The position numbers and the translations under genes were made by a program. This document shows positions 1-40,136 of a stretch of DNA of 64,000 bases, one piece after another; the first letter of the stretch is position 1, and every line of letters starts with the position of its first letter. The notes beneath the pieces are model-generated. The model was not told the DNA's origin, did no database searches, and saw only the letters and a program-made list of their open reading frames with translations. Origin of the DNA: Tomocerus qinae (taxonomy: Eukaryota > Arthropoda > Collembola > Entomobryomorpha > Tomoceridae). The stretch covers positions 10,411,501-10,475,500 of the forward strand of contig CM034550.1 in the NCBI GenBank assembly GCA_020055645.1, given 5' to 3'.

Positions 1-91
1 TCCCTTGACAAAAAGTGGAGGAATTATTTTTTACATCGATTTCGAGTATAATCTCATTCAATTTATCTTCCCTGCAATCCTTTTCATGGAG
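1..91 (+). CDS. SLC6-like gene, exon a (partial)
   Basis: Read in frame 2, this gives a hydrophobic stretch beginning LTKSGGIIFYIDFEY and ending FPAILFME, before the donor GAG|GTGAGA at 92. It corresponds to the end of TM9 and to TM10 of the SLC6 fold. The next exon starts at 172 in phase 0. The true exon start is outside the window. Confidence 0.7.
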
Positions 92-2572
92 GTGAGAAAA
101 AATTATGCTGTGATGGGCGGGTTACTGGTAATCGTCGACGAATTATGCAATATTGTAATTTGTAACATTAGGTTACAAGCACCTGTTGGATATATAAAAC
201 AGGAAGAATTCTGGATAATGCTGAGTTGATGGAGGTTGTTCACAATCGCTATTTAATTATGTACTTCTGGGTGTGTTTGCATATACTTGCTCCTATTGTA
301 ATCGGGGTAAGAAAAACACATTTTTAAAAAACATTTGATATCCATTGGATGTGTCGGATTGACCTAACGAATGTTTTTATTACTTTTCAGGCTACACTAA
401 TAATTAATATTTGTAATTATAAAACTGTACATTTCAATGCCCGAAAAGAAAGTGTTCCCAATATAGGTGAAGCTTTTACCAACATTATTTATGATCCATT
501 TATTTTGCAATCATATAATTTACGTTGTTGGTATGTAGATAAGCTGCAATACTTCACTAACATATTCCTTGCGATGCCCATTTTATTATGGGTTTTGGGA
601 ATATTGGACCAAGTATTACAATTGGATGATTTGGTAAGAAATTATGTAAATAGCTGTAAAATACACTCATTGTCAGTCATTGTTTGGAGAAATGTAACCG
701 TATAGTCTAGTATAGGCTAATGGTGTAATAAGTTTGAAAAATTTAATTCGGAGATACTTTTACCGGCAGAGAAATTGGAAATCTGTGTTTTTATCTAATG
801 AAGATAAACACCTGCATATGCATCACCATTTACTGAGTGAAGGTGGCCAAGTGAATCAGTTAGAGTTTATCGTAAACCACCGGGCTTTGGTAGATGTAGG
901 GGACGAGGAAAATATGAAGAAAACGGACCAAAGAAGGCAAGATAAGCTCGACAGTAAAATTAAACAAGCTGCAGACGAAATAACGGGAGACAACCAACTT
1001 CCCAAGAAACACGAAAGAAAAGCAGAGGTGAAAGTTGAGGAAGTTCAAAAGAAAGATGCGAAAGAATTGAGCAAGGAAATTTTGAAAGTGCTTTTCAAAA
1101 GAAACCGAACGACTGGCAAAATTCAAATAAACAAAGGAATGGTTGAGAGACTTATGTTTTGCAGGGATACGAAAGGAAATTTAACGTTTCGGAAAGACGT
1201 TCTTCGAAAAACACTTTTCCGTCTCAAAGACAATGGCAAGCTGAAAGTCAACAAAAGACACTTAGGTCAAATAATGCTTACTGAAAGCAAGGAAGGGAAA
1301 ATGTATATTCGAAAGGATGCCATCGCTAATATTTTAATACAGACAAATGAGAAGGGAGATATCAGATTGAATAAGCACCTGTTGTCGAGCTTAAAAACGA
1401 AAAAGTTGGACGCTATAGAGGATAAAATTCGCCATATTATTGGACTGGTATTTACATTTCCAGGAGCTCAAGGAAGAAGTCGAATGCGCGCAGCCCTACT
1501 CAAATTACTAATACAACGGAAAGGTGAGGAAGGCACATTTTATATTCCGAAAAAACTCCTTTCCAGAATACTCCTTCATAGAAAATACTACACTTCCCAC
1601 ACTTTTGTCAAGAAAAACGCTATTCGTACCTTGCTCTGCGACAAACCGAAAAATGACATCAACAACAGTCTCACGAGCCGTTTACCGGAATTTAAGGATA
1701 ACTTGACTTTTAAACGAGATCAACTAGGAAAATTACTATTTTATAAACATCCAAAAACACTCAAATTAACGAATTACTGCGTCCGTACTGTTATTCTGAA
1801 AGATTACCATCATGGAAATGTTGTGAGTGATAGACAAATAACCAGGATTAGAAAGTTTATGGTGAAAGCAGGAGCAGATGTGAAATTATGGAGTGACTCT
1901 CCACTGTTCAAAAAAATTAAGAAAACCACTAATGGCTACATATTGGGTAAAGACCTAGTTCACAAAGTAAGACTGAGAAAACTTTCTGGTAAAAAATTTG
2001 TGATTAGCAAACATTTACTCAAGAAAATAAAACGCAAAGGGAATTTGAATCTCGGAAAACATACAACCACAAAATTGAAACTGGCCAAGTACCCCTTCGA
2101 CAAGTATTTGGGTAATAATAAAATTATTCCAAGCACTTTCTCTTTTCCTATACAAACAACATAAGAAACTTTTCTCCAACTTTCACCAGCTAAATGGTTA
2201 TTTTATTTTTTGATTTTATAAGCTTACAATGATGCTTTTGGGAGGTTAAAGCGGGATGTTACTGGAGGACTAAAATTGCGAAAAATGATTGCTGTATTGA
2301 GAAATTTACGGAAAGTATACCGGCGAGAACATCGACATAGCTCATTTATGAGAGATCATAATCTTGTAGACCATCGTACGAAAATGGATATTCTGGTAGA
2401 AAAGATATTTAAGCATTTTGAAGAGTGGCCAGGCAGACTGGATGACCATGTCGTCGATACTGACTATTCGAATGATTCAGAAGATTCCAATGATTACCGT
2501 AAAGTTCATAGAACTCGCGTCAACCATATGCAACGCAAGGATTTAGTTAAAGAATTGAAAATGGTATCTTGA
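1..2572 (+). CDS. Divergent SLC6-type transporter, C-terminal part, with long Lys-rich repeat tail (5'-partial)
   Basis: Spliced model: <1-91, 172-306, 391-633, 716-2111, 2223-2572. All junctions are GT-AG and the phases agree (0,0,0,1), giving about 737 residues. The first ~155 residues match the end of the SLC6 family: a GGI..Y segment, a helix followed by EVTSTCWIYKTGRILDNAEL (the family's E-x(5)-W-x-YG-x(10)-EM stretch), then TM11-like YFWVCLHILAPIVIGATLI and TM12-like FTNIFLAMPILLWVLGIL. The sodium-site half lies left of the window. SLC6 proteins are plasma-membrane symporters for amino acids or transmitters; the substrate cannot be told here. The remaining ~580 residues are Lys/Arg-rich and made of ~20-residue repeats, whereas SLC6 tails are usually short. 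The gene converges with the nAChR gene on the other strand. The family assignment rests on motif memory, not on a search. Confidence 0.72.
172..306 (+). CDS. SLC6-like gene, exon b (TM10 end to TM11)
   Basis: The acceptor CATTAG ends at 171 and the donor GGG|GTAAGA starts at 307. The 45 codons start VTSTCWIYKTGRI and end LAPIVIG. The W-I-Y and D-N-A-E-L-M spacing fits the SLC6 motif between TM10 and TM11. Both flanking introns are very short (80 and 84 bp), in contrast to the long receptor introns further right. Confidence 0.72.
391..633 (+). CDS. SLC6-like gene, exon c (extracellular loop and TM12)
   Basis: The acceptor TACTTTTCAG ends at 390 and the donor TTG|GTAAGA starts at 634. The 81 codons cover the end of TM11, a long polar loop containing NARKESVPNIGEAF and a single RCWY, and a last hydrophobic helix IFLAMPILLWVLGILDQVL. 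The loop before TM12 is longer than in typical SLC6 members, which have about 15-20 residues there. Confidence 0.72.
716..2111 (+). CDS. SLC6-like gene, exon d (Lys-rich ~20-residue repeats)
   Basis: The acceptor GTATAG at 714-715 restores the phase left by exon c. A closer AG at 731-732 would shift the frame and hit a stop within about 22 codons. After a basic juxtamembrane stretch (NLIRRYFYRQRNWK) and a charged linker, about fourteen degenerate repeats of roughly 20 residues run from about 1075 to 2110. The pattern is L-x-x-I-L-F/L-x(5)-G-K/N-I/L-x-I/V-N/R-K-x-x, for example GKIQINKGM, GNLTFRKDV, GKLKVNKRH, GKMYIRKDA and GDIRLNKHL. The exon stays open to TAA at 2162-2164. The preferred model splices at 2112 because the next exon then joins in frame. 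Confidence 0.65.
2223..2572 (+). CDS. SLC6-like gene, last exon
   Basis: The acceptor TTTTATAAG ends at 2222 after a T-rich tract. Joining the lone G left by exon d to CT here gives Ala, then YNDAFGRLKRDV and an open frame to TGA at 2570-2572 (about 115 residues). It is rich in Arg, His and Asp, with a basic start (RKMIAVLRNLRKVYRREHRH) and an acidic patch (DYSNDSEDSND). No domain is recognised. It could instead be skipped, with translation ending at 2164. Confidence 0.5.
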
Positions 2573-3784: not shown

Positions 3785-6700
3785 CTGAAAAGAATTTTTA
3801 TTGTCAATTAATTCCTTTATTATGCAATTAGGAAGAAATTAAGGTGGAGAGATGTCGACTTACCTGTCAATGACCAAAGCAGCCTGTTGCCATTCCAATT
3901 TGATAGTTTCTTTCCTGTCCTGGTCTTCCATACGAACCTCATTCTTTTCCATGGTGTGATGTACCTGAGTTAAAAGCCGGGTTAATCTCATCTCCCAAAG
4001 GGGCGGTCTAGCTCTCGATGAGGTAGGAGCAGAACTAGGATCCGAAGGATTTCCTCCACCACCTTCAGGAAAATGAGGGCACTTGTGCGTCGAAGTTCCT
4101 AATACACTATCATCACTGGTGATTTGTTGTGGTCCATCTCCAGATGGAATCCCTCTAACTCTCATGACCGGTCTGAATCTACTGTACAATCCACCGCAGC
4201 AATTGGAACAAGAACTTCCTGAAGTACCCGTCTGCACATTCCCATAAGATGAGTACCTAGTTTCATAAACGTTATTGTGACCCGAAACGGTTCTCCAGTT
4301 GTCTCTTCTTCCCATTGGATCATCATCATCGCAATAGCAGGATATATTCGGAGGAGGAGTTAATGGCATATTCGGATAAACGATTCTCCACGCATCAGCC
4401 TGTCGATTTGAAAATTAAAATGGCATTATATTTTTCAATTTTATAATATTAATACTACTATTTTCCGTTTACACATGTAAAAACAATTCAATTTACGTCC
4501 CTTGTTACTTTCCCTTCTAAAAAATGTAGATCTTTTACTAGCCCAGGACGTTGAACATTTTTAATCTATTTTTTAGCAGAATAGATTTTCGGAAGGATAC
4601 GAGAACAATGTGTGTACAGACTCGTAAATAATAAAATGACATATTACATGCTAGTAAGTTTATCTAAAGATTCTTGGTTTGTTCATACTTTTCTTTTCGG
4701 TTGGTGAGTCAATGCTGTACTTCCAGTCGAAATTACTCCAGTGCCGTCCGTGTTCCCGTCGTCGAGATTTTCATCAAGGATGTAGTCCCGCTTTGGGAAA
4801 TCTAAGCGTAAACAAAGAGCCTTGGCAAGATAGTTGAAAATGAACTTTCGCAAAGCATGAGGCAACTCTTGTCCGCGCATTCCCCGGTGATGAATATTCA
4901 AAGTTACGACGGATAGTCCAGTGGCAAACGACACGAGAGAGATTGTCACTCCGTAGTACAAACCTAAATTAATTAATTCCCAAAGTAAGTTTAAAATGTA
5001 GTAAAACTATCCTTACATGAGAATAATTATATACCTACTTCTATTTAAATGGCGCTATGGCTAGACTACTTCATTTCGTGGAATGTAAGATCAATAAAAT
5101 CTTTGTTGACCTCCTCTATAACTTCTCTAACCTAATCATTAAGAAATGTTACTACTTTTATTCACATAGGTACTTAGCAATAAACGAACTATAAGGATAA
5201 TCCTTTTAATATTGAAACTCAAGGCTTCATTTAGGAAGCATAGGGGTCGCCCCCAAGAAATCCAAGAAAAGGAAATTTTTTCCAAATACCAAAATATTTT
5301 GCGATTTTATGCCATTCTTAGGCCATTTTGACCCATTTTCGACAAAAAGAGCCCTTTTTCTAATAAAATATGGCTCTTTGACGCCATTGCCCCCTCCGAA
5401 ATCCACTTCTAAATACGGTACTGTTGACACTTGACATCAAGATAGTTGCATTAAAATCTGATTACTGTGATTACATTCGAGACACTTCCTACCTGCTTAT
5501 TTTGTACACTAGATTCATAATATGCGAGTCACTGATATTTTATAAGTATATACAAACACAGTTGAATATTATAGCATTTGTTCCTGTAGACTTTTCATAT
5601 TTTGATAAACTACCATTTTCATGGGGTTAAATGGCTGGATACCGCATTTAATTAAGACTTCACAAATTATAAATGCCATGTAAATTAGCGTTAGATATGT
5701 ATGGTTCATTTTGTCTGTCGTACCTCATATATTTTGAATACAAGCACCTATATAAATATGCGTACAGAATATACGCGTCGAGGTAGGATATATTATTATG
5801 TTCAAAAGAAAGCAAATGTGGGTCAGGCAGGTAGCAGAGTAGCAATAGCAGTGTATTTGAGTAAACTTGGTGTCAGAAAAAATGTAAATCCATCGAATAG
5901 GCTTTGGAAGACAATATTGCATCACTAGCACATCAATCCACCACCTTTTGAAGAAAATTCCGATTAGATTCTGCTCTGGTGAACATAGTCTGTTGTGAGA
6001 AAATCAACAGCATTTCTCCATTCTAAATGTCTTTCAGATATTCAACAAAAGTAAGGTGAGATCTATGTTAATACATATAACTTGCAGAATTCAGAACTGA
6101 AAAGTCTAAGACTGAGTACTGAAAGTTTCCTTAAAATGTTCCTACGTTTTGACAAAGAAGCCTTCTTATCTGTATTTTGCAATACCTGAATTCACTTACG
6201 CACGACACAAAATAATATAACCGTGCATATCTATAGGTATAATACAGAATAACTTGTCAAAGGAGTCATCTGACTCGAAGAGCTATACAATATCCGAACT
6301 TCAGAATAAAAAAGTAACTTCCTAAATAATTGTGCAACTTATCACACTTTTCCCACGCTGTGTATACATGTCAGTGACAATACGAAAAATAGCGGAAATT
6401 TCGCAAAATACTAGTTTTTGCCTAAAAGTACTGAAATTGATCTCTCACCTAATGACTACTGATGCAGCATAGTGCATAGGGTATTTAAAACTTCTTTTAA
6501 GTACTTTTTCAAACAGCATGAGCGAAAAAATACTCCTGAGCAAATAATCCATGTACCCAATAAAAACTAAAGTTTTCGAAAACTTTCTTATTGGGGATTT
6601 TAGGCTTATTCTCTCCACATTTCCGCTAACGTCTAAGTGCGTATAACTCTCACTGTAGTAGTGTATTCTAATATATAGCTTATACCGACATATGTTATTG

Positions 6701-9700
6701 AAATTGTGGGGAAAGTGAAATATAGAAGAACAAGAATACTTTTCGGCTCAATTAGTTTGGTTCACTGCTTTCTCTAGCGAATCGTACACTAGGAAGGAAC
6801 AAATATTGAATCTGAATTAGATTTAGCCTATGAATTCCATATATATATAATAAATAGACAAGAACAGCCGACAGGCATCATATTCATATTTGTAATCAGT
6901 TCACGAATTCTCAGAATGGGCGACGCATGTAGTAAAACTTAGATTACACATTGTAAAGAAACACGTGCACTTCCTACAATTTCAAATGCAACTTTCTTTA
7001 CGGGCGTTCGTGTTCACACTGTAATTTTTCATTATTTCACTTTCTCAGTAATGAAGAGAATGACAGACTGAGTTGTGCTTTATTTCCCTTGTATTGCAAA
7101 TTGAATGCTATGCCTGGCTTCTTTCTTTGAAATTAATATCAATTGGAGAAATGGAAGTAAAGGTGACTGGAGTGAAAGCTGCTTTCACCAGAAGTTCATC
7201 TCCGACCAATTGTTAATGGATATCAATCAAACGACGCTTAGAGGAGTTCCCTTTTACTAGTTTCCCACTTGTTCCGAGTACTGGAGCCTGAACTTTAGCG
7301 GGTATTACATCGGGATATGCTTCTATAGTCAACATTCAACATTCATTAAGACAAATGCCTCAGAAGTTAATAATAAACAACACTTACCGATAAGTGGGAG
7401 TTTCTCCGAAGTCGGTGGCATACTTTCACCAATTACCATGAGGAACACTGTCATTGAGAGGAGAGTCGTGATGCCCAAGGTTACTTTCTCTCCAGAATCT
7501 GACGGCATGTAGAAACTCAATAGCGCCAGCCCAGATATTAGCACACAAGGAAGAATCAAATTGAACACTGGAACAAAATAATCCCTTTCCTATTATTATG
7601 CCATCAAATATTAACAACTTTCTATGAACTCAAGTACTTATATTTATATTAATAAAATATCTTCCTCGAATATTAGGTAGTATATTATTACATTTAATGA
7701 TTCGGCAAAGATCATTTCACAAACTTACCGTAGAAAAGCGGCCGTCTTCTCAGAACTATTGTATACGTAATATCAGGATATGGCTCTGTGCAGCAAGAGT
7801 AATAAACGACATGCCGATTCACTTGCATCCGTATCAAATCCCATTCTCCGTTTTGAACATAGTTTGACAAATCTCCCTCTTCGGTCCCAATTACAAGATT
7901 CACCTATTCAAAGCATCAAACAATTCAAGGCACGTTCTATTAATTCTCCCTTGCAACATAAATGCAACAATTACCAAAACGTACTATTATGGCTGCATTC
8001 ACACTTTGCAATTGTGAAAGCCATACAAACAGTCGTATAATATACTTATATTCATATTTATTAGGGTCGTTCAAAAATCAGCCAAGTGTAACAAAATTAT
8101 CAAGTTGACCTGTTTTCCTTTCAGACTTGGTATTCATAACAAACTAACTATTAGCACTACTACAAATGATATGATAATAACATAGAAGTACTACTGCCTT
8201 ATCACAATTAGCTGAAAAATAATAAACTACGAAAACGAGTCCAAAGCATTGTTCTTCCTGCCTTGGGGCTTATATAAGGACACTAACATGTACCTAAAAA
8301 CGTATTCGCAGTTATTTCAATTTTCGCAACGTGTCTGTTACTTCCAACTCTCAAAGTAAATGTAACAATGTACCATGTACGTTACAGTGCACTCAACATC
8401 TGCTTCAAATTTCTATTTTTGCCTTTAAATTATATCAAATTAGTACAAAAGTGTAAGTTAAATAGGTCCTTGAGTAAGTAGGTACTAATAGCATGCTTAC
8501 ATAAGTTTTCTAGGCTTTCAATCATACTTACAATTTCTAACAAGGACTTTATTATCTACTGCATGTAATACAATATTCAAAGTATCCTACTTATGTAAAT
8601 ATAGGTGCATATTCATGCAGTGATCTCCCATCCCATTTTCATTTTAAGTATAAAGCTCTTCCGGTTAAAATCTCAAAAATACTCGACGAAAGTTCTATAA
8701 AGGATATTTTATACATAGTACTTATGCATCTGGTAGCAAAAGAGAAACTCCCGGGGCAAACTGACATAACATAACACGCTTAGCATAATTCTTTGATTTT
8801 GCATACGTAAGTAGTATTGTTTTACTGAAAAGTTAAGCTTCTTAATGTATAAATTCAGTAGCTATATCATAAACTAGTATAAACCTTTAAAACAACGACC
8901 TAGGACAGTACAGGCAGAAGTTTCAGTTTGAAACAAATGTAGTCTGACATAGATTGACAGTTTAATGCATCACAATGTATTTGACAAACATGAAAGGGTA
9001 GAACAGACTGTTAATAATACTAAGATACTAGAAATTCTATACTGAATCGCTGCGCAATAGAATTGTACAATAGAAGCGAGTGAAAGAAATGAAATTCACG
9101 TAAAATAAAGACTTTTCCATGTACCTTGTTCTACAAAAAAGAAATTAAAGACAACTGTGTTCAGAATTTTAAGTACAATTCTCTTTTTCCTCCTTAAGAT
9201 CTACCTAACTTAAAATCAGTCGACAAGACATGTCGACCAAGTTGCCAGTAGCTTTCGTCGCTCGACTTCATTTTGGATAAAAACTACCTTTACTTTAAAA
9301 AAAGCTAAATAGGGAACATTTCTTATAGTAGAATATCAACATTGGTATTTGTCATGAACCATAGAGTTTATTGGTATACGAACAGGGAATAGCAAAGGTC
9401 ACCTGTAACGGTGTAACCCTAACCTAACTGTAAGTCAGAATTGAAGAAATAGTAATGCTCACAACCCTACAGAGACAGTAAATTGCCCGGGCGCTAAAGT
9501 ACCAAACTGGAGTAGATTGGTTGCCAAGAATAGGAAATGTTCTTTCGACACGATACAAATCTAGCAGGAATTATTTATTCCTCCTAAAAGTTACACACAA
9601 TCATACAATAGAATATAAATAAGTAAAATGAATAGGATTCCTAGCTAGGATGACTTCCTTTTTTGCTACACGAAGAAAAGTAATGAAAAAGAAATAGAGT

Positions 9701-12700: not shown

Positions 12701-15700
12701 TATTTTTTCCCAGTTACAGTAAATACTGATATTATAATTATTTAGATGCCAGGGGTCCAATATTGTCCAGAGAATTTTACTTATAAAATATTTCCACCAC
12801 TGTACATTAAATAATGTTGGGTCAACCAGTGTTATAAAATAGTAGATGTATTGTAGTAGAGTGGAAAGGGATAGTGGCCAGGCGTGTTGAATTTCATTAG
12901 AGGAGTGCGCTGCACTGCTTTGATATTTATGATAACAGTATTCAGCAGTCACCACCCACAATGAAGCTAATAGTGACCGTCTGTCGGAACGTGTAATGTC
13001 TAGTTCTACTCTAGTGCGACTTTAGTACAAGTTAAATAAAATGCTAATGATGAGAATGATGGGATAGACTATACCACTATTGGGAAGAGTTCTTTGTGCA
13101 TGTCTGAAATAAAACAAAGTAGGTTTATGTATACAGAAGAGTCTGTAAAGAAATCACTACATTTTGTGTACCTAACAAATTACTATATTTATAGAATGTA
13201 AGTGCCTACCTGACGAAACTTCTTGGCATCATAAATAATGCAAAAGAGATGGAGATCTCATGTTAAATTCATAGAGTCTCTTCCCTCACTTTTCTAACCC
13301 AATCTGTCAGGGACATAAGAAGTGGACTGATATGGTTTGCTATAGGAGTGCAATATATTCTCTCCTCTAAGGGACATGATATGTCAATTATTAAGTGTAT
13401 CTGTTCCTTGCTGAATAGATATCACGTCGGGGTTCTTTCCAAGTTAAATTGCCAAAGTATAATAGGTAGAGCGGTGGGAATTGGGAAATACATATTTATC
13501 TCTTACAGATATGGATGAGATTTAATCAAGACAAGACATTTGCTTCTACTATCTCTTGCACTTCGTCACTTTCCTTTTTGCTATCATATTAAACGAACCC
13601 AAACCAAGCCGCATCTTTCACACCAGGTACCTAGAGAATCCACTCTCTCCTGCCTCTGAAATCCTTCGTGTGTGTCTTCAGGGCACGTAAGTTCTACCTA
13701 ACCGTGTACATTTACTTACACCTTCTTCGGAGTCTTCTTTGTTCATCAGAAAACTAAAACAAGATATCCCGAAAACCTAAAATGCTAACTTCCAAGTGTT
13801 CCTTCCTGGGAATTTCACTTGAGAACCGTCACTCTTCAAAATTGAACTACGTAGTTATACTTCGACAAAAGGTATTATTTCCATCATATCAAAAGATTGA
13901 GAGCAAAATGAAATGAAATTCACACAGTATTACCTGACACTATAAGAATGTAACGCGTAGTATTTTAAATGATTCTCTTCGGGAAAAACATTCCAATTTG
14001 CTACTCGTCTTTTGTTTCTGTTTGCCAAAATCTATTATACTTTTCTACCCAAAATACTTTCTTTTATATAGACAATGAAAATATGGAGAGGAAAAAGTTG
14101 AAAACAAAATAATATAACTAACTCAGTATTGTGATTGTGGAACAGAGTTTCTTTAACATTGCTTTGACACTTGCTCTTCATTATGAAGTTAGTAATGAAA
14201 TTGTATCTATAGCTCGTAGCAGAAAAGGGAGAAACTTTTTCAATTTTGGGTTTGTTTATTTATTTACAGTTCAGTTGTACCCGTTTGGTGAAAAGAGAAA
14301 ATTCCTTTGTTCTACCAGAAGTTGCTGTTATATAACTCTGAAAATAATTTCGGCAGTGCCTATTTCTAAATTGAGCTAATCGAGATATCTAGGATCGTGT
14401 TAAGTACAAAGAAGTTCTCTATTTTGTGTAATCATTCCTACAAATGGATAATTGAATTAAATGATGTCAAAATGATGTAAACGTATGGGATTCCATTAGA
14501 TTCTAGGAATAAATTCAAACATTCCATGCAAATGGAATTAGGTTATAATTTGTTCGTTGCAGACCAATAAATATCTCACCAGGCCAAGAGCAGACCCCCC
14601 AGTAGCTATAAAGATTGCACGTGAGGATTTAAAATCCTCGTTTGGCAACAATAGTTTAATTTACCAAACTCATTTGTTTACCGTTACGAAAAGCAGATTG
14701 CACTGAACAAACTAACAATAATAATTGACTTACGCTATTTGTTTACATTCGATGAAATGAAAGATAAATAAATGCTAATCGACAATCGATACTCTTCAAT
14801 TCCATCGTCATCACTGTACTTTGAACCCATTGTTTCCCCCAAAATACTAAAAGATACTACTAGCAATAAAATAAACTTACTTGGAATCCATCATAAGTCC
14901 AACTGGCAAACTTCATCGTACAGTTCTGCTCATCAAATGGAAAGTATTCCACATTGATACTACATGACGACTTGAAAATTGCAGTGCTCAGCCATGTAAT
15001 GTTTCCATCCGATGATATGATGACGTTCGTGCTCAGAATTGCTAAGTTATACTGACTATCCGCACTGAGCACAAAAAAGTTATACACTCATATTATTATC
15101 ATAGACAAAAATTGTTGTCTACTATCAAATATAATAGACCCTAAAATATTGTAATACCTACGCGAGAAAATTGTTATGATGATGAAACAATTTTGATTTC
15201 TGATGGAGAAAGTAGAAATGCATCTAATCTACTACTTTATAATCCTAAGACCTAGGACTACATTGCAATATCACTCCACAATTATAATTTTTTTCCTTTT
15301 TTTAATAAACAATAAAGAATTACTACCCATATAAACTCAGAATGTCTTAAGATACAATGTCTTACGCTACAAATAACATTTTTGTGCTTAGTAGCATGAA
15401 CTGATTCTTTAATGTAAAAAATCTTTTATACTAAGTATCTACATACATCTCGAATTTTGTCCGCAAAATATAGTACCATCATTTTCGATGATTCTAATAC
15501 TGCTTTATACATATCGGGATAAAAGTACTATTTTATCGACAATCTAGTAAAAAGGAATATCAGGGTTATTTGTACTGTATAAGATCTAGACAAATAAAGA
15601 GGATATATTTTCCTGGCACTTTATTCTCAATTCGCTGAAAATAAGTTGATCTCCGACTCCAGGTAAGCTTAGAGAGCTTTATGTCTGTACTATGTTTGTT

Positions 15701-39000: not shown

Positions 39001-39410
39001 ATTAAAGTGTCAGTATCCTGTCACTTTTACTGCACTTTGGCCGTGCAACATAATTTTGTAGACATCGGCGGAAACGGCAGCATCCGAGTTATTCATAAGA
39101 AATAGGTATATTTCCAATGAGACATAATAAAGCATGGTAAAACGTTGTACACAAGAGATGAGATGTATTTAGTAGGATTCCTTCAGATTGTAGAGAAAGT
39201 GTCGGATATGATAGAATGGTAATGAAAGTGTGCAGTCGGTTTTACAGTGAAAGTGTAGATGTCATAGTATATGTAAGTACATAGCAACCGGCTAATCTTC
39301 TTTGTAAATCCCTTTTCCAGATAAAACAAGCTAGAAGAGAGGTTCTCTTATCTTCTTCGTGAGATGTAATAAACAGAACACAACATAAACTTCAAAGGAA
39401 ATCTAAGACA
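36035..39410. other. Intergenic region
   Basis: Between the likely promoter of the minus-strand receptor gene and the orphan membrane-protein gene. AT-rich; no exon or RNA gene recognised. Open frames at 36728-36931 and 38866-39105 lack any supporting feature. Confidence 0.5.
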
Positions 39411-40136
39411 ATGAATTTTGGGAAATTACCCGTGGGGTTTTTTCTCCTCCAGGTCTACGCTCAATTAAACGCCTGGTTTGCCATTTATTTAGCTAGGCTC
39501 ACAAAGAATCACGATGAATTATGGAAAAACGTCGTTTTCCACGAGCTTACTCTCAATCCTCAGGAACGTAAAGTGCACTATAATTTCGAAATACCTCTTT
39601 GGGACTCTAATATTTTCACACACGGTGTAAAACGGTTTTTAAATGGGAGCTTACAAATGAGCTCTTTAACTTATTATGCTCTACTCATCTGTGCGTCGGA
39701 AACTCTCATTTTCCTCACTCTGTCAACATTGTCTAAAGTCAAGTACCGTAATTCGATCTCATTTTTACTAATTACTAATTGTATTTCCTTCGTGGTTGCA
39801 GCCTTTTGTGCTATTTATCTCTTGCTCAGTCTCATACCTAAGGAACAGGGAATCTACCGCACAATGGACGAAATTTTGTATCACAAAGATGAGATCGGTC
39901 AACTTCTTTTGAGAAAAACTTTTAAAAACGCTCGCACAGAGACGTCAGGGCATTTATGCAGATATATTTCTTACTTTGGATCTTCCTCTGATAATCAGCT
40001 ACCTTTTGGAGATGACATTTGTACCTATTGGCTTCAGAAAATATCTTGTGCAGTTTTAACTCTCGGTTATTCTATCTTTTCAGCTTTTCTTGTTTTCAAA
40101 GGCAGAGAATTGGGCTCAATTAAGTCAAAACTTTGA
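39411..40136 (+). CDS. Unrecognised single-exon membrane protein, 241 aa, about four TM segments
   Basis: Continuous ATG-to-TGA frame, long for such AT-rich DNA and clearly protein-like in composition. Hydrophobic segments lie at ~8-29 (PVGFFLLQVYAQLNAWFAIYL), ~86-107 (LTYYALLICASETLIFLTL), ~116-142 (ISFLLITNCISFVVAAFCAIY) and ~207-229 (ISCAVLTLGYSIFSAFLVF). The loop between the first two has a sequon, N78-G-S, and IPLWDSNIF. The loop between the last two has Cys183 and Cys204, which could pair if extracellular. Four helices with N- and C-termini on the same side recall claudin- or clarin-like tetraspan proteins, but the claudin W-GLW-C-C signature is absent, so no family is assigned. There is no intron, and AATAAA lies about 200 bp downstream. 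It sits between two divergent receptor genes, so a retrogene or lineage-specific gene is possible. Confidence 0.7.
   Translation: MNFGKLPVGFFLLQVYAQLNAWFAIYLARLTKNHDELWKNVVFHELTLNPQERKVHYNFEIPLWDSNIFTHGVKRFLNGSLQMSSLTYYALLICASETLIFLTLSTLSKVKYRNSISFLLITNCISFVVAAFCAIYLLLSLIPKEQGIYRTMDEILYHKDEIGQLLLRKTFKNARTETSGHLCRYISYFGSSSDNQLPFGDDICTYWLQKISCAVLTLGYSIFSAFLVFKGRELGSIKSKL

Follow-up and report, generated by a model that had tools for sequence, protein, structure and literature searches.

A divergent SLC6-type gene of Tomocerus qinae that probably encodes a 581-residue basic tail with a 20-residue repeat

As drug targets, SLC6 transporters have been studied intensively; their C-terminal tails are known as short trafficking signals. 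Bedraggled (bdg) is a long and divergent insect SLC6 with its extension on the N-terminal side. In PMC7144082, bdg is cited as an SLC6-like gene of Drosophila. In PMC5085708, the function of insect SLC6 orphans is said to be unknown, the silkworm orphans are reported to be divergent in TM1 and TM6, and one of them, BmSLC6-16, is 1145 residues long (Table 1 of that paper). In Drosophila, the male germ line requires the SLC6 protein Ntl (PMC3029318), which shows that SLC6 proteins can serve sperm. According to that paper, Ntl resembles GlyT2 and has every critical SLC6 residue, unlike the protein described here; its text does not contain the terms 'repeat', 'extension' or 'intracellular domain'. 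No description of an SLC6 protein with a repeat tail was found among the titles, abstract openings and selected passages of openly licensed papers that were searched.

Here, we analysed a window of 64,000 nucleotides of T. qinae (contig CM034550.1, positions 10,411,501 to 10,475,500). The window start falls within a gene whose 5′ part lies outside the window, and 18 kb of upstream sequence (segments L031 and L032) was added. The resulting model has 13 exons, runs from L031 position 6543 to window position 2572 and codes for a protein of 1321 residues; the features inside the window are listed in Table 1. All 12 introns are of the GT-AG type and 71-132 nt long, and the model has no internal stops. 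Two of its splice sites are weak: the donor of exon 8 (GTGATT) and the acceptor that precedes 716. The start ATG is our choice, and an extra 5′ exon is possible.

Table 1. Features of the putative SLC6-type gene inside the window (window positions)
Feature	Position	Strand	Basis or remark
SLC6 exon 9, 3′ part (TM9-TM10 region)	1..91	+	begins upstream at L031:8888; frame, GT donor at 92
SLC6 exon 10	172..306	+	phase 0 at both ends; aligns to GAT1
SLC6 exon 11, putative last membrane helices	391..633	+	phase 0 at both ends; hydropathy
Intron, 82 nt, phase 0	634..715	+	donor GTAAGA, acceptor TATAG, weak pyrimidine tract
Exon 12: post-TM12 segment, charged linker, basic repeat tail	716..2111	+	frame, coding signal
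Five tandem 20-residue units, residues 861-960	1076..1375	+	x-x-L-x-x-I-L-F-x(5)-G-K-I-x-I-N-K
Candidate degenerate unit, residues 1000-1019	1493..1552	+	7.9 bits held out; weak
Candidate degenerate unit, residues 1065-1084	1688..1747	+	9.0 bits held out; reached by 32/1000 shuffles
Intron, 111 nt, phase 1, frame-keeping	2112..2222	+	if retained, stop at 2162-2164
Exon 13, last coding exon	2223..2572	+	without significant repeat

The first-pass annotation had linked the membrane part to SLC6 by its motifs, and a profile search with the upstream exons added made that link firm. Residues 1-772 matched the Pfam SNF profile with E=1.4e-60 (205.9 bits, cut-off 27), while the window exons alone scored 21.2 bits, under the same cut-off. 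The match consists of two stretches, the best of which spans profile positions 144-500 of 524, and it reaches residue 687; window-exon residues 4-30 fall inside it, which supports the exon at the window start. In a phmmer search, the membrane part matched solved GAT1 structures (PDB 7sk2 and 7y7v) with E=6.2e-39. At E<=0.001 it matched 77 distinct PDB sequences, and the 60 listed among them are named as neurotransmitter or amino-acid transporters or just as 'Transporter'. A simple hydropathy scan gave 11 peaks, two of them overlapping and none at the TM1 and TM3 regions; the peaks that mark exon 11 span residues 646-664, beginning in exon 10, and 717-735. The protein shares with GAT1 the SNF domain, most residues of the Na+/Cl- sites and the external gate pair, and differs from it in the long basic tail, which GAT1 does not have, and in the gap between the two GAT1-aligned stretches, which is 129 residues here and 12 in GAT1. 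The second outer loop is enlarged, in the L031:7433-8010 region of the gene. When the membrane part was searched against the 334-Mb genome of the same species, there were 36 matches among the best candidates scored, 12 being the gene's own exons and 24 lying elsewhere, the latter over short stretches with 22-42% identity (E 4e-8 to 0.23). The gene is apparently single-copy; it can be called so in appearance only, since the genome search scores the best candidates.

Site residues were compared by hand on the GAT1 alignment, and GAT1 numbering is used throughout. Thirteen positions are identical (G59, Y60, I62, G63, N66, R69, Y140, Q291, G297, N327, S331, D395 and S396). The changes are S295 to T, D451 to E, A61 to M, L64 to I and Y86 to F and, further, F294 to I, L300 to N, G65 to H, L392 to F and D410 to S. 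We take the ion-site residues to be G59, I62, N66, Q291, S295, N327, S331, D395 and S396, with the Na1/Na2 side chains presumably being N66, S/T295, N327, D395 and S396; the latter positions carry N, T, N, D and S, all of which fit the SLC6 expectation. At the chloride site, assumed to be Y86, Q291, S295 and S331, the residues are F, Q, T and S, that is, two kept, one conservative and one lost. In the external gate, which we take to be R69 and D451, R69 is kept and D451 is replaced by E. The presumed internal gate aspartate, D410, is absent (S), which weakens the claim of transport and leaves the SLC6 homology untouched. The presumed TM1 glycine of the substrate site, G65, is also absent (H). 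Its absence was not counted against membership because silkworm orphans are reported to be divergent in TM1, and the changed TM1 and pocket residues here fit the TM1 and TM6 divergence described for those orphans (PMC5085708). As read from the alignment, the protein retains most of the ion sites but has an altered substrate pocket and no inner gate aspartate. Of the roughly ten named site residues, three are gone altogether (G65 to H, D410 to S and Y86 to F), so that transport by this putative symporter is doubtful.

Beyond the putative last helix, 581 residues (741-1321) follow the exon at 391-633. They contain 135 K+R and 65 D+E (net charge +70), in agreement with the Lys-rich tail of about 580 residues noted at first pass, and the last 576 residues have a pI of 10.3. 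The open frame 716-2164 has 482 codons; given how dense stops are in the 17-38 kb region, a frame of this length has a chance probability of about 4e-15. The exon 12 frame has a 3-base periodicity ratio of 6.9. In 30 control windows of equal length, taken from 17-38 kb and assumed to be non-coding, the ratio averaged 1.3 and never exceeded 2.75. The ratio of exon 13 is 3.4, with 2.2 also in the 1 kb beyond the last stop, and exons 9-11 reach only 0.9-1.3, being short pieces and too short for this measure.

That this tail is read in the frame of the transporter is supported by the splice signals and the matching phase of the intron between 633 and 716. The exon 12 frame opens at 716, and the acceptor AG just ahead of it also forms the last two bases of an in-frame stop. 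Within the searched range, the frame stays open with any of 33 donor/acceptor pairs, so the phase match alone is weak proof. The start of the tail has no significant likeness at any useful place to the last exons of paralogs. In 12 comparisons of six paralog pieces with the tail and with the whole protein, the best match (16/300 shuffles) fell in TM1-TM2; this is the wrong place and was rejected as support for the join, and a resemblance after TM12 seen by eye was discounted. From frame and splice signals, the join is likely, and it is very probable that the 581-residue basic tail belongs to the SLC6 gene.

Last exons were picked by eye in three of the six fetched 3′ regions of paralogs and have open frames of 55, 75 and 106 residues. 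Paralogs with ordinary short tails are thus apparently present in this genome, and the contrast drawn at first pass with the normal short tail holds for these three of six paralogs; in the other three no last exon could be made out. A short tail could also come from the gene itself, as one of two isoforms, if intron 634-715 is retained in some transcripts and spliced in others, which would make the long tail optional. The frame through this intron goes 23 further codons to a stop at 703-705, and the acceptor before 716 is weak; however, plus-strand positions 1-958 contain neither AATAAA nor ATTAAA, and exon 12 is long and coding-like. We regard an optional tail as rather unlikely. Less likely still is a division into two genes, in which the SLC6 gene ends near 705 and a separate basic repeat protein starts at the first ATG of the exon 12 frame (818) or at another one (914). 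Both ATGs are in the tail frame and no homology ties the tail to SLC6, but the tail frame has no stop as far back as 716, directly after an in-phase donor/acceptor pair, neither polyadenylation signal precedes 959, and a second promoter and 5′ end would need to be packed into about 110 bases or to overlap with exons of SLC6.

The first-pass annotation had also described about fourteen degenerate units of about 20 residues in the tail. The repeat itself was confirmed, with five tandem units, each precisely 20 residues long, at residues 861-960 (z 6.1 at lag 20 and 7.9 at lag 40, 0/5000 shuffles), and the number of units was not. Lag 20 also stands out in the whole tail (z 4.8, 0/5000 shuffles) and in a repeat region of 330 residues (z 5.6, reached at no lag in 1000 shuffles). 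In the rest of exon 12 (residues 961-1205), lag 20 has a z of 2.06 and the best lag, 55, was reached by 2155/5000 shuffles; residues 741-860 and the last exon, tested in the same way for periodicity, have no significant period. Only five units are therefore regular, and about fourteen is an overestimate. When a profile was built from these five units only, its top match in the rest of exon 12, which was held out, was 9.0 bits (reached by 32/1000 shuffles) and in the last exon 4.2 bits (150/1000 shuffles). As a control, the membrane part gave 5.8 bits (339/1000 shuffles). Other candidate units score below those at residues 1000-1019 and 1065-1084, and a set of ten units from a refitted profile was rejected because refitting inflated the count. 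Lag 40, being the strongest, hints at a two-unit super-repeat.

Pairwise identity among the five units is only 3-6 of 20 residues. At the DNA level, second codon positions agree at 0.61 for lag 20 and 0.63 for lag 40 (other lags 0.28, sd 0.05), first positions at 0.35 and 0.42 compared to 0.32 elsewhere, and third positions at 0.20 and 0.28 compared to 0.26 elsewhere. Tandem Repeats Finder reported nothing within 1076-1375. Agreement at second and not at third positions, together with the absence of a DNA tandem repeat, argues that the pattern is held in the protein and does not come from recent DNA duplication, as for a repeat that is old and maintained at the protein level. AlphaFold models from the single sequence have a mean pLDDT of 36.5 (354 residues) and 40.3 (114 residues). 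In each model, three to four of the five units take the shape of a short helix and then a hairpin, and because of these low pLDDT values, structure prediction of the tail gave only a hint of a helix-plus-hairpin unit fold.

Searches for relatives of exon 12 covered Pfam, PDB, viral, phage and prokaryotic sequences and the same genome, and exon 13 was compared with Pfam. Exon 12, cut into three pieces, matched no Pfam family at E<=10; RTX_C, Cap4_nuclease and MARTX were far under the cut-off for exon 12 and vanished when it was cut into pieces. Three Pfam families were found for exon 13, all under the cut-off (E 0.073-1.1). PDB matches to exon 12 (E 0.068 and 9.6) were taken as chance, and a profile of the repeat units found 0 PDB sequences. 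In searches that find close relatives only, the exon 12 frame gave one unconfirmed pattern match among viral contigs and 28 pattern matches in prokaryotic genomes, of which 0 were confirmed; there was none among phages. In the same genome, the tail found itself and ten chance-level matches (E 1.6-8.7), and three of these ten loci were read. Two of them (L034 and L043, C1, about 132.41 Mb) lie in a minisatellite array with many open frames on both strands and were rejected as relatives for this reason, as was L036, which encodes an unrelated acidic repeat protein. The absence of relatives in the places searched and of significant periodicity outside the five units would also fit a tail that is a non-functional, drifting addition to a gene that evolves fast, its basic character being a matter of composition. 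Against this, the frame is intact across 581 codons and the five units agree at second and not at third codon positions, and we give drift little credence.

The adjacent upstream gene (L031:3651-6206, plus strand) has an HMG box (E=1.3e-7) and a very long K/R-S-S-G-G repeat tail that consists of DNA tandem repeats of 30, 33 and 384 nt. By its sequence, its product looks like a sperm nuclear basic or sperm chromatin protein; HMG-box sperm nuclear basic proteins are described in PMC13148410. Further upstream, on the minus strand of L032, exons of a zinc-finger protein and a CDK8-like kinase were seen by eye. Downstream, a neurotransmitter-gated channel subunit gene stands tail-to-tail with the SLC6 gene, with exons at 7332-7589 and 14863-15087 (minus strand; Pfam E 1.8e-24 and 1.6e-23) and further pieces seen by eye at 3863-5006 (minus strand; Pfam none or E 0.14). 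An open frame of 257 residues at 39363-40133 (plus strand) has the look of a multi-helix membrane protein (best Pfam match E 0.12). Elsewhere in the genome, one 7tm_6 odorant-receptor match was found among 21 candidates scored (31.7 bits, cut-off 25.8), which is few for a winged insect at that number scored.

What the sequence of the modelled gene contains is an SLC6 membrane domain with most ion-site residues and a changed pocket, continuing in one frame as a basic tail of 581 residues. The first-pass annotation had seen a new architecture in a tail of this length, but the protein is not entirely without precedent, since the silkworm orphan BmSLC6-16 reaches 1145 residues; both are orphan-type SLC6 proteins of more than 1100 residues, a likeness of length and of the description in PMC5085708. 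With bdg the protein shares length and divergence, and it differs in that its tail is C-terminal and the bdg extension N-terminal. We favour, with moderate confidence, a 1321-residue SLC6, highly divergent and apparently single-copy, that belongs with the insect 'orphans' and whose cytosolic basic tail would act as an anchor by binding an acidic surface. The tail after the last helix would lie in the cytosol, and its five putative helix-plus-hairpin units and other basic segments may bind tubulin tails, nucleic acid or phosphoinositide lipid as candidate acidic surfaces. In this way the tail would hold the transporter, or a sensor that descends from it and no longer transports, at a single site within the cell. 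Such an anchor function, whether cytoskeletal, nucleic-acid or lipid, is a guess.

We also guess that the cell belongs to the male germ line, because the next upstream gene resembles a sperm-chromatin HMG-box protein; a testis role is only a guess since gene adjacency is weak evidence. Membership of SLC6 is what the protein has in common with Ntl as described in PMC3029318, and the testis context is here only suspected. A bolder form, which we consider a long shot, is a new architecture in which an SLC6 carries a cytosolic solenoid of 20-residue basic units docked on an acidic polymer of sperm (axonemal tubulin or condensing chromatin), coupling solute transport or sensing to the shaping of the spermatid. 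A tail of nearly transporter size, with a regular repeat for which the families searched gave no match, would show how a transporter can gain a scaffold. The long-tailed SLC6 gives a concrete, testable handle on the insect orphans.
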